A stretch of 64,000 nt of DNA, taken from assembly GCF_000375345.1 (NCBI RefSeq), contig NZ_AQXD01000001.1, forward strand, positions 636,600 through 700,599, given 5' to 3'. Position 1 is the first letter of the stretch, and each line of letters starts with the position of its first letter. Positions 7,505 through 11,060 of the stretch are shown piece after piece. The DNA is from Wohlfahrtiimonas chitiniclastica DSM 18708 (GTDB lineage: Bacteria; Pseudomonadota; Gammaproteobacteria; Cardiobacteriales; Wohlfahrtiimonadaceae). Under the pieces are notes generated by a model that searched no databases, was not told where the DNA came from, and was given only the letters and a program-made list of their open reading frames with translations. A program made the translations under genes and the position numbers.

Positions 7505-8734
7505 ATGTCAGACGCGACTGTCAATACCAGTACAAAATTATTACCGGGGGAACTCGGTCTTAGCCTCAAATTAGCAGGGCTTTTCTCCATTAGGATGCTG
7601 GGCATTTTCATCATATTGCCGGTACTTACCCTTTATAGCCAAAGCTTAACGGGCTCTACCCCCTTTTTAACAGGACTTGTGTTCGCAAGTTATGCCCTCA
7701 CACAAATCTTATTGCAACCCATTTTTGGTGTGGTGTCCGATAAGATGGGCAGAAAACCTGCCTTAATCGCCGGCCTTGGCTTATTCATTGTGGGCAGCAT
7801 CATTTTAATGTTTGCAAGCCATGTCTATGTGGCCATTTTAGGGCGCATCATTCAAGGCGCGGGGGCTGTTTCTGCCGTTGTCTTGGCACTAGCCACGGAC
7901 TTAACCCGTGAATACATTCGCTCAAAAGTGATGGCCATGATTGGCGTGAGCATCGGTTTAACTTTTGGTGTCGCGGTGTCATTAGCCCCCATCATCTATA
8001 TGGTGGCCAAAGGTTATGGCATTTTTGGTGTCTGTGCACTCATGGGTGCGCTTGGCATCTATGCCACCATTAAATTCATCCCTGATGCACCGATGCCCAC
8101 AGAAGCAATGAAAACTAAGTGCGAAAGCATCTCTGAGCTCACACGCATCGCCTTTAGCAATGGCAATGTGGTGCGTTTATACTTTGGCGCATTCATGCTG
8201 CATCTATTATTGACCATGACCTTTGCTGCCATGCCAAGCCTCCTTTCTCAATTAGAAATCTCTGGCGGATCGGCCACCCTTTATTATGTGAGCACATTTT
8301 TCATCTCATGCGTCATCATGTTTGCCTGCGTAGGACTTGCTGAACGCTTTTATCGTCACCGCATTTTATTCTTAGTGGCCATTTTATTTTTAGCACTCGC
8401 GTATTTAGGCTTAATCATTTCTGAAGAAGGCAGTCATGCCCTATTTTTCTGGGGCTTACTGTTATTTTTCTTTGGCTTTAATGTGATGGAAGCGATGCAA
8501 CCTTCCATCATGTCTCGCGCAGCCGATCAACACTATCGCGGTACCATTATGGGTGTTTTTTCCTCATCACAATTTTTAGGCACATCCATTGGTGGCATGC
8601 TTGGCGCTACAATCAGCGGTTATTTTGGCGTACAATATGTCTTTTACTTGGCATTTCTTTTAGCAGCAGTTTGGTTCGCAATCGCATGGCCGATGCAAAA
8701 TCCTGTTAAACCTCAAAAGAAAGCAGACGCATAA
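7505..8734 (+). CDS. MFS transporter, YajR-like
   Basis: Twelve-span major facilitator. The first half closely follows the YajR pattern: FSIRMLGIFIILPVLTLY, motif A as GVVSDKMGRKPA after span 2, GRIIQGAGA in span 4, and ATDLTRE after it. At 409 residues it ends after the last membrane span and lacks the soluble C-terminal domain of E. coli YajR (about 454 residues). AAGGAG stands 10 bases before the ATG. The stop overlaps the next ATG (TAATG), so it is translationally coupled to a deoC-like aldolase. The transported substrate is unknown; the coupling hints at a sugar or nucleoside-related compound, which is inference. Confidence 0.85.
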   Translation: MSDATVNTSTKLLPGELGLSLKLAGLFSIRMLGIFIILPVLTLYSQSLTGSTPFLTGLVFASYALTQILLQPIFGVVSDKMGRKPALIAGLGLFIVGSIILMFASHVYVAILGRIIQGAGAVSAVVLALATDLTREYIRSKVMAMIGVSIGLTFGVAVSLAPIIYMVAKGYGIFGVCALMGALGIYATIKFIPDAPMPTEAMKTKCESISELTRIAFSNGNVVRLYFGAFMLHLLLTMTFAAMPSLLSQLEISGGSATLYYVSTFFISCVIMFACVGLAERFYRHRILFLVAILFLALAYLGLIISEEGSHALFFWGLLLFFFGFNVMEAMQPSIMSRAADQHYRGTIMGVFSSSQFLGTSIGGMLGATISGYFGVQYVFYLAFLLAAVWFAIAWPMQNPVKPQKKADA

Positions 8735-9474
8735 TGGAAGCAGAAACCTTAAAAATTAAAGTGGCACAAAAAATGATCGGGCTGATTGATCTGCCCTATC
8801 TATTTTTAAACCTAGATGCCCAAAAAGTGGCACAAGAAGTGACAACCATTGGGCCCATTGCCTCAATCACAACCTTTGCGCAACACATTGCCCCACTTCG
8901 TGAAGCATTAGGCGACAATCCACCGACATTGTCATGCATCATCAACTATCCAAATGGCCCTTTTAATACCTACAACGCCACCCAAGAGATGAAACAAGCC
9001 ATCGAAGCTGGCACTGATGAAATTGACCTCGTCTTTCCCTATCAAGCCTTGGTCAATCGTCAAGCGGGCTTATGTTTGAAATTTTTGAACACCATGCGTG
9101 AAACCGCAGGTGATACGCCATTAAAGCTCACCATTGAAGCGGGCATTTTACAAGATGCCAAATGGATTCGAAAAGCCACAGAACTTGCTGTCAGAAGTGG
9201 CATGAATGTCGTCAAAACCGCTTCAGGACGCAATCGTCAACAAATCACCCTCACCATGGTGCAAATGATGCTGACTGTGATTGAAGACATGAATCCTGAA
9301 ACGGGCATTCACATCGTGACAACCAACAACAATTTTACCGAAGCTTCACAATACTTAGAGGAAGTCATCAACCGTTTAGGCACATCATGGGTTGATGCTT
9401 CTCATTTCCGTTTAAGTGGTCCGAATTTGGTCAGCTCCATTTCAGAGCTGCTCGCTAAAGACCATGCTATTTAA
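8734..9474 (+). CDS. deoC: Deoxyribose-phosphate aldolase homologue with altered active site
   Basis: Class I aldolase fold. DeoC cleaves 2-deoxyribose 5-phosphate to glyceraldehyde 3-phosphate and acetaldehyde. The 246 residues align along E. coli DeoC: GTDEIDLVFPYQAL with Asp98, KLTIEAGIL, VVKTASG with the Schiff-base Lys161, and a C-terminal WVDASHFRLSG. The strand that normally reads GFKPAGG and carries the second essential lysine reads GIHIVTTNNN here, so that lysine is replaced (His193 by ungapped alignment). It may be a weakened or re-purposed aldolase. It starts inside the stop of the MFS gene. Confidence 0.82.
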   Translation: MEAETLKIKVAQKMIGLIDLPYLFLNLDAQKVAQEVTTIGPIASITTFAQHIAPLREALGDNPPTLSCIINYPNGPFNTYNATQEMKQAIEAGTDEIDLVFPYQALVNRQAGLCLKFLNTMRETAGDTPLKLTIEAGILQDAKWIRKATELAVRSGMNVVKTASGRNRQQITLTMVQMMLTVIEDMNPETGIHIVTTNNNFTEASQYLEEVINRLGTSWVDASHFRLSGPNLVSSISELLAKDHAI

Positions 9475-9495: not shown

Positions 9496-10275
9496 ATGAA
9501 TCCACAATTAACCATCGCACAAAAAAGTGTTTCTAAAGTTAGCCGTTTAATCAATCAAATCTTTGAACAAACTGCTAAATTAAGCCAAGCACAACGCGAA
9601 GAGACCGAACGTTTTGACATCTTTTACGCACAAATCGAAACTGAAATTGCCAAAGAGATTTTATACGCTTATCCAGATCATACGGTCGAAACAAAACTCA
9701 CGGGCGTTCATGGCAAAGCTGACAATAAATCTTATTGGTATGTGAGCGGCATCGTTGGCAAACAAAACTTCTTAGGTGGCAATCCTGACTTTGCTGTTTC
9801 TGTGGCTTATATGGTTGAAGACAAATTAATGGCAGCATATGTTTATGCGCCTGTGTCACAAAAAACCTATATGGCTGTGAAAAATGAAGGTGCGACACTC
9901 AATGACATTCGCATCCGTTTACCTCGCCACAGCGGCCGCATCAGCGATGCCCTTTTACTCACAGATGCTCGTTCATTGCGTAAAGAAAACGTGATGATGA
10001 CCGCGCATTTACATCACCTCTCTTTAGGTGTTAGAGTATTAGGCGATGAAGCATTGAGCATCTGCGAAATGATCGAAGGCAAAGCATCTGCCGCTTGGTT
10101 GAATGCGTTTGATCCTTGTGATCATTTAGCGGCTGTATTGATTGCCCAAGAAGGCGGCGCTTTAGCCACTGACTTTAGCGGTAATGAAGTGGACATCAGC
10201 GCTGAAAATGCAGCTTTCGCCACACCTAAATTATTGAAACCTTTATTACAATCCATCCATCAAGCCAAACGTTAA
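9496..10275 (+). CDS. suhB: SuhB / inositol monophosphatase homologue lacking the catalytic metal ligands
   Basis: Aligns without gaps to E. coli SuhB across the catalytic core (YPDHTVETKLTG; WYVSGIVGKQNF; DFAVSVAY). The metal-binding residues of the family are gone: Glu67 is Lys67, and Asp84 and Asp87 of DPLDGTTN are Ser84 and Val87. The Asp of the upstream VTNVDKAAE box is also lost. Only the late Asp209 (DPCDHLAA, family WD) remains. Phosphatase activity is therefore unlikely. E. coli SuhB also works in the Nus complex during rRNA transcription, a role that does not need catalysis, so it may be kept for that. It lies 21 bases after deoC and overlaps the next start. Confidence 0.8.
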   Translation: MNPQLTIAQKSVSKVSRLINQIFEQTAKLSQAQREETERFDIFYAQIETEIAKEILYAYPDHTVETKLTGVHGKADNKSYWYVSGIVGKQNFLGGNPDFAVSVAYMVEDKLMAAYVYAPVSQKTYMAVKNEGATLNDIRIRLPRHSGRISDALLLTDARSLRKENVMMTAHLHHLSLGVRVLGDEALSICEMIEGKASAAWLNAFDPCDHLAAVLIAQEGGALATDFSGNEVDISAENAAFATPKLLKPLLQSIHQAKR

Positions 10276-11060
10276 TGAAGATCCGGAAATCTCACCTACT
10301 TGCCCCATTGTTAACCCTGTGCTTCATGCCAGAAGCCCACAGTTTATCGTTGTTGATGCAAAAGTATCACAATGTGGAGTTTGCAGTGGTTGAGGTTTCC
10401 GAACATGATTCATTACAACTTTTTTGGAAAAATCCAGCCACTGAGCAGCCGTATCAATCTTTTTCAACCCTCAATAAGACGCTGCAAAAAGAGAAAAAGC
10501 AGCTTCTGTTTGCCATCAACTCTGGCATTTTTGGACAAGATCAATCGCCGCTTGGTTGGCATATGGAAAAAGGTGAGCTCTTAAAGGGCTTAAATCAGAT
10601 CACACGCACAAATGCCATCGGGAACTTTTCATTGATCCCGAATGGCGTTTTTTTTGTCAATAAAGATGGATCGCGCCATGTGTTGGAAACAGAAAATTTT
10701 CTTCGCAATCAAAAGCGCTATGAGCCTTTATATGCCACACAATCTGGCCCGATGCTTGTGGTCAATGGTCAATTGCACCCAAAATTCTTCCCATCTTCCG
10801 ACAGCTTAAAATACCGCAGCGGCGTTTGTGTTAAAAACAACACCACGTATTTTGCCGTCACACAAAGCCCCATTAATTTTTATTACTTTGCCAAATTCTT
10901 TCAAGCGGAACTTGGCTGCAAAGATGCCCTTTATCTTGATGGCACATTATCACAACTCTCTTACCTTGGAAAAATTTATGGCGCACCCTTTTGGAATGTG
11001 CGCCCATATGTAGGCATTTGGGCCGTTACGAGCCCGATGACAAAGGAAACGTCAAAGTAA
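10275..11060 (+). CDS. Secreted phosphodiester glycosidase-like protein (DUF2233/NAGPA)
   Basis: Exported protein with an N-terminal signal peptide (about residues 1-23, ending near EAHS). The rest matches the NAGPA/DUF2233 pattern: AINSGIFG (cf. AINAGMF), PLGWHMEKGE, FSLIPNGVFFV, ATQSGPMLVVNGQL, YRSGVCV and DALYLDGTLSQ. Family members are phosphodiester glycosidases; the bacterial substrate is generally unknown. It starts within the stop of the suhB-like gene (TAATG). Its last 35 bases overlap the 3' end of cpxA on the other strand. Confidence 0.78.
   Translation: MKIRKSHLLAPLLTLCFMPEAHSLSLLMQKYHNVEFAVVEVSEHDSLQLFWKNPATEQPYQSFSTLNKTLQKEKKQLLFAINSGIFGQDQSPLGWHMEKGELLKGLNQITRTNAIGNFSLIPNGVFFVNKDGSRHVLETENFLRNQKRYEPLYATQSGPMLVVNGQLHPKFFPSSDSLKYRSGVCVKNNTTYFAVTQSPINFYYFAKFFQAELGCKDALYLDGTLSQLSYLGKIYGAPFWNVRPYVGIWAVTSPMTKETSK

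Follow-up and report, generated by a model that had tools for sequence, protein, structure and literature searches.

SuhB of Escherichia coli is an inositol-1-monophosphatase that also acts as a Nus factor (PDB 2qfl, 6ib7, 6ib8, and 6tqn), and its enzymatic activity is already known to be dispensable in this organism. In the rRNA complex of E. coli, the SuhB dimer has been described as a hub that contacts NusA, NusE, and NusG (PMC10250234), and the growth defects associated with E. coli suhB have been described as not tied to inositol monophosphatase activity (PMC4807359). A double substitution near the C-terminus (KL251/254AA) is reported to disrupt binding to the NusA AR2 domain, shifting the Kd from 94 nM to 141 μM, with the mutant still partly binding full-length NusA (PMC6614801). 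At the DNA level, a boxA element, interpreted as feedback control, is reported before suhB in 34 of 55 gammaproteobacterial genera, and a change at boxA position 4 is described as disrupting the element (PMC5725501). The relevance of the phosphatase activity to the role of SuhB in rRNA transcription has so far been argued from E. coli mutants.

The window (i.e., the whole 64,000-nucleotide stretch of Wohlfahrtiimonas chitiniclastica DSM 18708 analyzed here) contains a suhB orthologue (9496..10275, + strand) whose 259-aa product is classified as a putative pseudo-inositol-monophosphatase from its open reading frame, Inositol_P profile, tree position, and AlphaFold model with fold matches. This protein matched Inositol_P (PF00459) at 105.1 bits (hmmscan) and aligned over nearly its whole length with chains of E. 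coli SuhB in a phmmer search of PDB chains (E-values from 1e-20 to 2.7e-20), with approximately 24% identity. In the phmmer and MAFFT alignments, the E. coli metal ligand E67 and the adjacent E68 are replaced by Lys-Leu (codons 67–68; 9694..9699, + strand; E67K and E68L), and the DPLDGTTN signature is replaced by SGIVGKQN (codons 84–91; 9745..9768, + strand; D84S, D87V, and T89K, with G88 unchanged); further changes include D44Y and W211C. These alignments confirm the substitutions E67K, D84S, and D87V and the altered signature, which an earlier note on this DNA had read by eye. Among the residues E67, D84, D87, T89, and D212, only D212 is retained (codon 209; 10120..10122, + strand); the equivalent residue is Asp in Wohlfahrtiimonas and in the third genus of its family and Thr in Ignatzschineria. 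A sequencing slip was ruled out as the cause of the site loss, as the same loss is present in five other Wohlfahrtiimonas genomes (Wohlfahrtiimonas sp. G9077, W. larvae, W. populi, and two MAGs), with the SuhB of G9077 being 97% identical to the window SuhB. Judged by its sequence, the interpretation of the window SuhB as a pseudoenzyme is well supported.

The best model of the profile library for this protein was NF008027 (PRK10757, inositol-1-monophosphatase), with 90.5 bits and thus below a 332-bit cut-off that was reached in 0 of the 32 genomes sampled from the order, intact SuhBs included; TIGR02067 (HisN) gave 54.4 bits, also below cut-off (275.15). The AlphaFold model presented a mean pLDDT of 91.9 and a pTM of 0.91, and each of the first 11 PDB matches found by Foldseek was a SuhB structure from either E. 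coli or P. aeruginosa (TM by query 0.86–0.91), including 6ib8 (SuhB with AR2) and 6tqn (rrn antitermination complex). In this model, the SuhB fold is retained without need for the active site. Proteins named inositol monophosphatase by family models may be without a catalytic site; the window SuhB reaches 105 bits against a cut-off of 27.

The window genome (a 1.99 Mb assembly in 7 contigs, completeness 100) contains two proteins found by PF00459, the window SuhB and the product of G000:C3:72985-73755. The latter belongs to the same Pfam family but has an intact DPIDGTKAF motif and falls in a clade separate from SuhB; its TIGR02067 score (228.5 bits) is under the 275.15 cut-off, and we refer to it as HisN-like. 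A second intact SuhB is ruled out in this genome, the sole other Inositol_P protein being the HisN-like one from the other clade. The combination that the earlier note had named as speaking against its reading, an intact second suhB together with neutral drift of the window copy, was thus looked for, and neither part was found. On the other hand, its statement that the lineage had dropped inositol phosphatase chemistry goes too far; an intact HisN-like family member remains in the genome, and this paralogue may act on related substrates. The HisN-like paralogue was examined in 16 of the 18 genomes sampled from the family, a count that excludes the two genomes of the third genus, which have one further match, and its motif was intact in all 16. 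One genome (G006) contains an extra, third Inositol_P family member (L145), which is intact.

The family sample comprised 18 genomes from four genera (with 6, 1, 2, and 9 genomes), including Wohlfahrtiimonas and Ignatzschineria, the named members being placed in the NCBI family Ignatzschineriaceae. A suhB orthologue was present in 18 of 18 genomes and the metal signature was gone in 18 of 18, with E67, D84, D87, D44, and T89 gone in all four genera; alignment with related genera, a check that the earlier note had suggested, therefore finds the same dead orthologue (i.e., one that has lost this site) throughout the family sample. The order sample comprised 32 genomes, 14 of them outside the family. 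Nine of these 14 contained an intact SuhB (L021, L022, L024–L029, and L032), and three contained a dead one (L031 in G021, L057 in G028, and L049 in G030); the two incomplete genomes G029 and G031 (78% and 86%) presented only matches of ≤85.5 bits and stand outside the intact and dead counts. L049 (1501-2676) and L057, both from another genus of the order, carry a lysine-rich C-terminal tail of approximately 125 residues beyond the Inositol_P domain.

Selection on the dead SuhBs was assessed by Nei-Gojobori dN/dS, for which 51 pairs were computed per protein and the six pairs with dS <1.1 were used. In these six close family pairs, dN/dS was 0.035, 0.020, 0.033, 0.022, 0.040, and 0.025 for the dead SuhB and 0.056, 0.014, 0.018, 0.033, 0.040, and 0.036 for the HisN-like enzyme. 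The dead SuhB of the family is clearly under purifying selection, and neutral decay of the window suhB is ruled out by the dN/dS of 0.020–0.040. The other pairs are near or past silent-site saturation, and among them dN was higher in the dead SuhB than in the HisN-like protein. A set of 27 intact SuhBs has 52 conserved positions; of these, 18 were lost in all four family genera (including D44, E67, E68, D84, P85, D87, T89, D201, and W211), 13 were retained in all four, and 21 were mixed. In an alignment of 13 family sequences, 21 of 259 residues were invariant, among them Q33 and the equivalents of K251 and L254; R34, F40, and Y44 were nearly invariant.

To place these losses within the class, we surveyed an even draw of 377 gammaproteobacterial genomes with completeness ≥95%, 371 of which presented a SuhB-like match. 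The genomes examined were the 17 with the weakest or no match (including two of the six without a match), 28 with intermediate matches, and 16 others, with G034 sitting in both of the latter groups. The weakest group contained five dead SuhBs, i.e., L112 (G233), L122 (G146), L125 (G235), L123 (G053), and L124 (G037), which fall in four further families (f146, f119, f26, and f10); among the loci read in the other 12 genomes of this group, none was a dead SuhB. D84, D87, G88, T89, and D212 were kept in all 28 intermediate genomes (29 places, three of which lack part of the N-terminus, so that D44 or E67 could not be read everywhere), and SuhB was intact in the 16 others (with G035 merged with the identical copy L023). 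Dead SuhBs were thus present in at least 7 of the 377 genomes, the window genome (G000) and G021 included. L112, L122–L125, L031, and L049/L057 all have T89 plus at least two of D44, E67, D84, D87, and D212 replaced, and all still match Inositol_P with 28.0 to 139.7 bits, L125 (28.0 against a cut-off of 27) barely so. The loss is therefore not a peculiarity of one lineage, as the earlier note had presented it, since three further genomes of the order and five from four other families also carry dead SuhBs.

The E. coli suhB gene is set among secDF, trmJ, and isc genes. By NCBIfam, SecF adjoins L112, L122, L124, and L125, and TrmJ adjoins L122, L123, and L125; in addition, IscU adjoins L124, the start of IscS shares a frame with TrmJ in L123, and a candidate IscR is found on the far side of TrmJ in L122 (the best IscR model falls below its cut-off and the Rrf2 superfamily model above). 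These neighbors match the E. coli setting, suggesting that the five dead genes are suhB in place. In G233, the dead SuhB is the sole Inositol_P protein found. A weak match in G071 was rejected as SuhB, as it fails the SuhB profile, and its frame resembles fructose-1,6-bisphosphatase by eye. Five genomes of 0.3 to 1.5 Mb (G049, G168, G305, G363, and G367) presented no SuhB-like match at E 1e-15, with G305 having only a CysQ-like protein; some reduced genomes may have dispensed with SuhB entirely.

When 95 proteins were placed in one tree, the family's dead SuhBs grouped as a single clade (support 100/98) within the SuhB part, separate from HisN-like and CysQ-like proteins, with a weaker join to the SuhBs of the order (84/76); they again formed one clade (100/99) in a SuhB-only tree of 36 proteins, in which L031 and L057 grouped with intact SuhBs from the family to which they belong. 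As judged from the sequences, the loss in the window's family is old and shared across the family. L049/L057 joined L123 in the 95-protein tree (95/55), a join to be read with caution because long branches meet there, and joined L031 in the 36-protein tree (91/78). Two losses within the order represent the best reading and not proof, because an AU test does not reject a single loss shared with the family (p = 0.105 for L031, 0.39 for L057, and 0.164 for both). The dead SuhBs of f146, f119, f26, and f10 were set apart by genome kinship and gene neighborhood; their branches are too long for placement by protein tree.

The equivalents of E. coli K251 and L254, which anchor SuhB to NusA according to the mutant data in PMC6614801, are found in the window SuhB within K-P-L-L (codons 248–251; 10237..10248, + strand) and are retained as K and L in all 17 distinct sequences of the family. 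By comparison, K251 is kept in 17 and L254 in 23 of the 27 intact SuhBs, and of the seven further dead SuhBs examined, L122 alone has both anchors (positions 251/254 being K/gap in L125, R/L in L124, and T/L in L049). Since 10 of the 27 intact SuhBs are without K251 and most other dead SuhBs lack at least one of the pair, the two residues are no absolute mark of SuhB function; within the family, their retention is the strongest single pointer in the sequence to probable NusA binding. NusA itself scored above cut-off in 28 of the 32 order genomes, 16 of them among the 18 of the family, where G006 (80% complete) gave no match by profile search and G012 only a weak one. The 28 NusA frames examined are between 497 and 531 codons long, and the C-terminal repeat was recognized by eye in each of them; in the window genome, this repeat scores 48.3 bits with TIGR01954 (cut-off 48.15), and NusA aligns with E. 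coli AR2 chains, 6ib8 included.

Because RF00177 found no 16S rRNA in the window genome assembly (nor in six of eight relatives), rRNA leaders were read from contig ends that enter 16S; contig C4 reaches the 16S 5′ end on both sides, and each leader contains the boxA GTTCTTTAACA. Genome-wide, GYTCTTTAANA matched 27 times in the window genome against 12 times in a reversed control; no Nus-factor gene was recognized by eye in the next open frames downstream at 20 of the 27 matches, and of the remaining seven, only the two at the C4 ends were read. Two early boxA matches with TGCTCTTTAAMA were dropped, one being beside a CRISPR array and neither locus having an rRNA match. That genome contains a CRISPR array with 18 RF01317 (CRISPR-DR4) repeats (L092, 343-1392; G000:C1 near 816,600).

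All nine Ignatzschineria genomes carry a boxA-like element, TCTTTAA[AC]A, 23–24 nt upstream of suhB, where it forms a conserved block next to the Shine-Dalgarno sequence amid variable surrounding DNA. The element fits positions 3–11 of the published GYTCTTTAANA and not always positions 1–2; its chance is 0.00095 per sequence by letter shuffles, the genomes being related. In one Ignatzschineria genome (G015), boxA-like sites are present on the correct strand in the rRNA leader and the 16S-23S spacer, a count (3 against 1.35 expected) that is not significant. No boxA was found in the 160 nt upstream of suhB in six Wohlfahrtiimonas genomes; in the window and in G9077, suhB is preceded by GCTATTTAATA, which differs from the boxA consensus at position 4. 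Elsewhere in the order, GTTCTTTGAAA, which departs from the boxA consensus at a single base, is located 28 to 18 nt upstream of the start of the dead suhB L031 (G021), and GCTCTTTTAAA lies 44 nt before the start of the intact suhB L026.

The window suhB is flanked by genes for an MFS protein, a DeoC-family protein, a NAGPA-type protein, and a histidine kinase (order MFS-deoC-suhB-NAGPA), and no secDF/trmJ/isc neighborhood was found around it. The DeoC/LacD-family gene (8734..9474, + strand; PF01791 39.0 bits, cut-off 23.8) ends 21 nt before suhB, and the start of the NAGPA-type (phosphodiester glycosidase) gene (10275..11060, + strand; PF09992 65.4 bits) overlaps the suhB stop by one base. In Wohlfahrtiimonas, the DeoC-family gene contains the Schiff-base lysine motif VVKTASG and reads GIHIVTTNNN in the segment that is GFKPAGGVRN in solved deoxyribose-phosphate aldolases, which we take to carry the second catalytic lysine of these enzymes; the third genus of the family keeps this lysine (GIKISGG). 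From its sequence, the Wohlfahrtiimonas gene looks degenerate, which would place two damaged enzymes side by side.

Together, these observations suggest that the window protein is probably a SuhB that became a natural pseudoenzyme and was retained for its role as a Nus factor. In the proposal of the earlier note that it is a pseudoenzyme kept for regulation, the pseudoenzyme part is well supported, and the Nus role is indirectly supported by the SuhB clade and fold, dN/dS, the anchors, the NusA AR2 domain, the rrn boxA, and the boxA-like element upstream of suhB in Ignatzschineria. Because metal ligands and water-activating residues are lost, the pocket would not be expected to hydrolyze inositol phosphate. 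The body of the fold and the C-terminal helix that faces NusA remain under strong selection. The dead SuhB would then most likely be a Nus factor only, docking on the AR2 domain of NusA and, with NusB and NusE on boxA of the nascent pre-rRNA, stabilizing the rRNA transcription complex, which may help antitermination and rRNA folding. What the data show directly is that the site is lost, that this loss is inherited within the family, that the protein is under purifying selection and has a SuhB-type fold in the model, and that a NusA AR2 domain and an rrn boxA are present; for the window SuhB, we infer a lack of catalysis, NusA binding, and action at rRNA. The strong conservation of the dead SuhB is most likely explained by its role in rRNA transcription being what matters, and the simplest account is that the family retained only the Nus role.

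An unlikely alternative, and the least unlikely of those weighed here, is that the pocket was repurposed, with a new ligand being bound or acted on through the residues that replace the metal site and the Nus role no longer being the main one. The replacements V40F, D44Y, and D201S, common to Wohlfahrtiimonas, Ignatzschineria, and the third genus, would fit this possibility, as would the conservation of Q33, R34, F40, and Y44. However, the NusA anchors are kept, and the genera vary in what has replaced E67, D84, D87, and T89, a pattern that fits loss better than new shared chemistry. It is improbable that the protein is still a phosphatase, with D212 and N91 remaining and an altered metal site giving residual or different activity; D212 is kept in Wohlfahrtiimonas and the third genus, but none of the four genera retains E67, D84, D87, D44, or T89, and Ignatzschineria also lacks D212.

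The HisN-like paralogue enters two further explanations. The dead SuhB could be its partner or regulator, as the dead subunit of a mixed dimer, given that the two proteins co-occur in family genomes and that SuhB-type proteins are described as dimerizing (PMC6614801); this seems very improbable, as the two genes are far apart (C1 and C3) and the dead SuhB of G233 is the only Inositol_P protein found there. That the gene is instead a pseudogene in decay, with the paralogue supplying its function, is hardly credible; a second Inositol_P protein is indeed present, but it belongs to another clade, and suhB is an open frame in 18 of 18 genomes with dN/dS of 0.020–0.040.

Retention as a Nus factor, our preferred reading for the window protein, may be part of a wider pattern. 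We tentatively suggest, as a possibility that we ourselves consider doubtful, that loss of catalysis is a recurrent route of SuhB in Gammaproteobacteria and that certain lineages have gone on to rebuild the vacated pocket, or an added tail, to suit a new partner or ligand in the rRNA complex. Hints for such rebuilding are the invariant Q33, the near-invariant R34, F40, and Y44, and the lysine-rich tail of approximately 125 residues in another dead SuhB. If this is true, SuhB would be at heart a transcription factor with a discardable phosphatase activity. We found no earlier report of a family-wide dead SuhB or of its recurrence in the portions of the open-licence literature consulted. Evolution appears to have separated both roles across a whole family and in other lineages, providing ready-made catalysis-free SuhBs for testing.

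In comparison with described systems, the window protein resembles E. coli SuhB in its predicted fold and in the K251/L254 anchors, and the window genome, like that of E. coli, has a NusA AR2 domain and an rrn boxA. Unlike E. coli SuhB, the window protein is without the metal site and shares only approximately 24% identity with it, and its gene is located in another neighborhood and is without a preceding boxA. Compared with the other dead SuhBs (L031, L049/L057, L112, and L122–L125), it has lost a different set of residues, and five of these adjoin secF and/or trmJ or iscU, whereas the window suhB does not. The nearest intact SuhBs by genome kinship, those of nine Cardiobacteriales genomes, keep the catalytic residues and are approximately 30–35% identical to the window SuhB.
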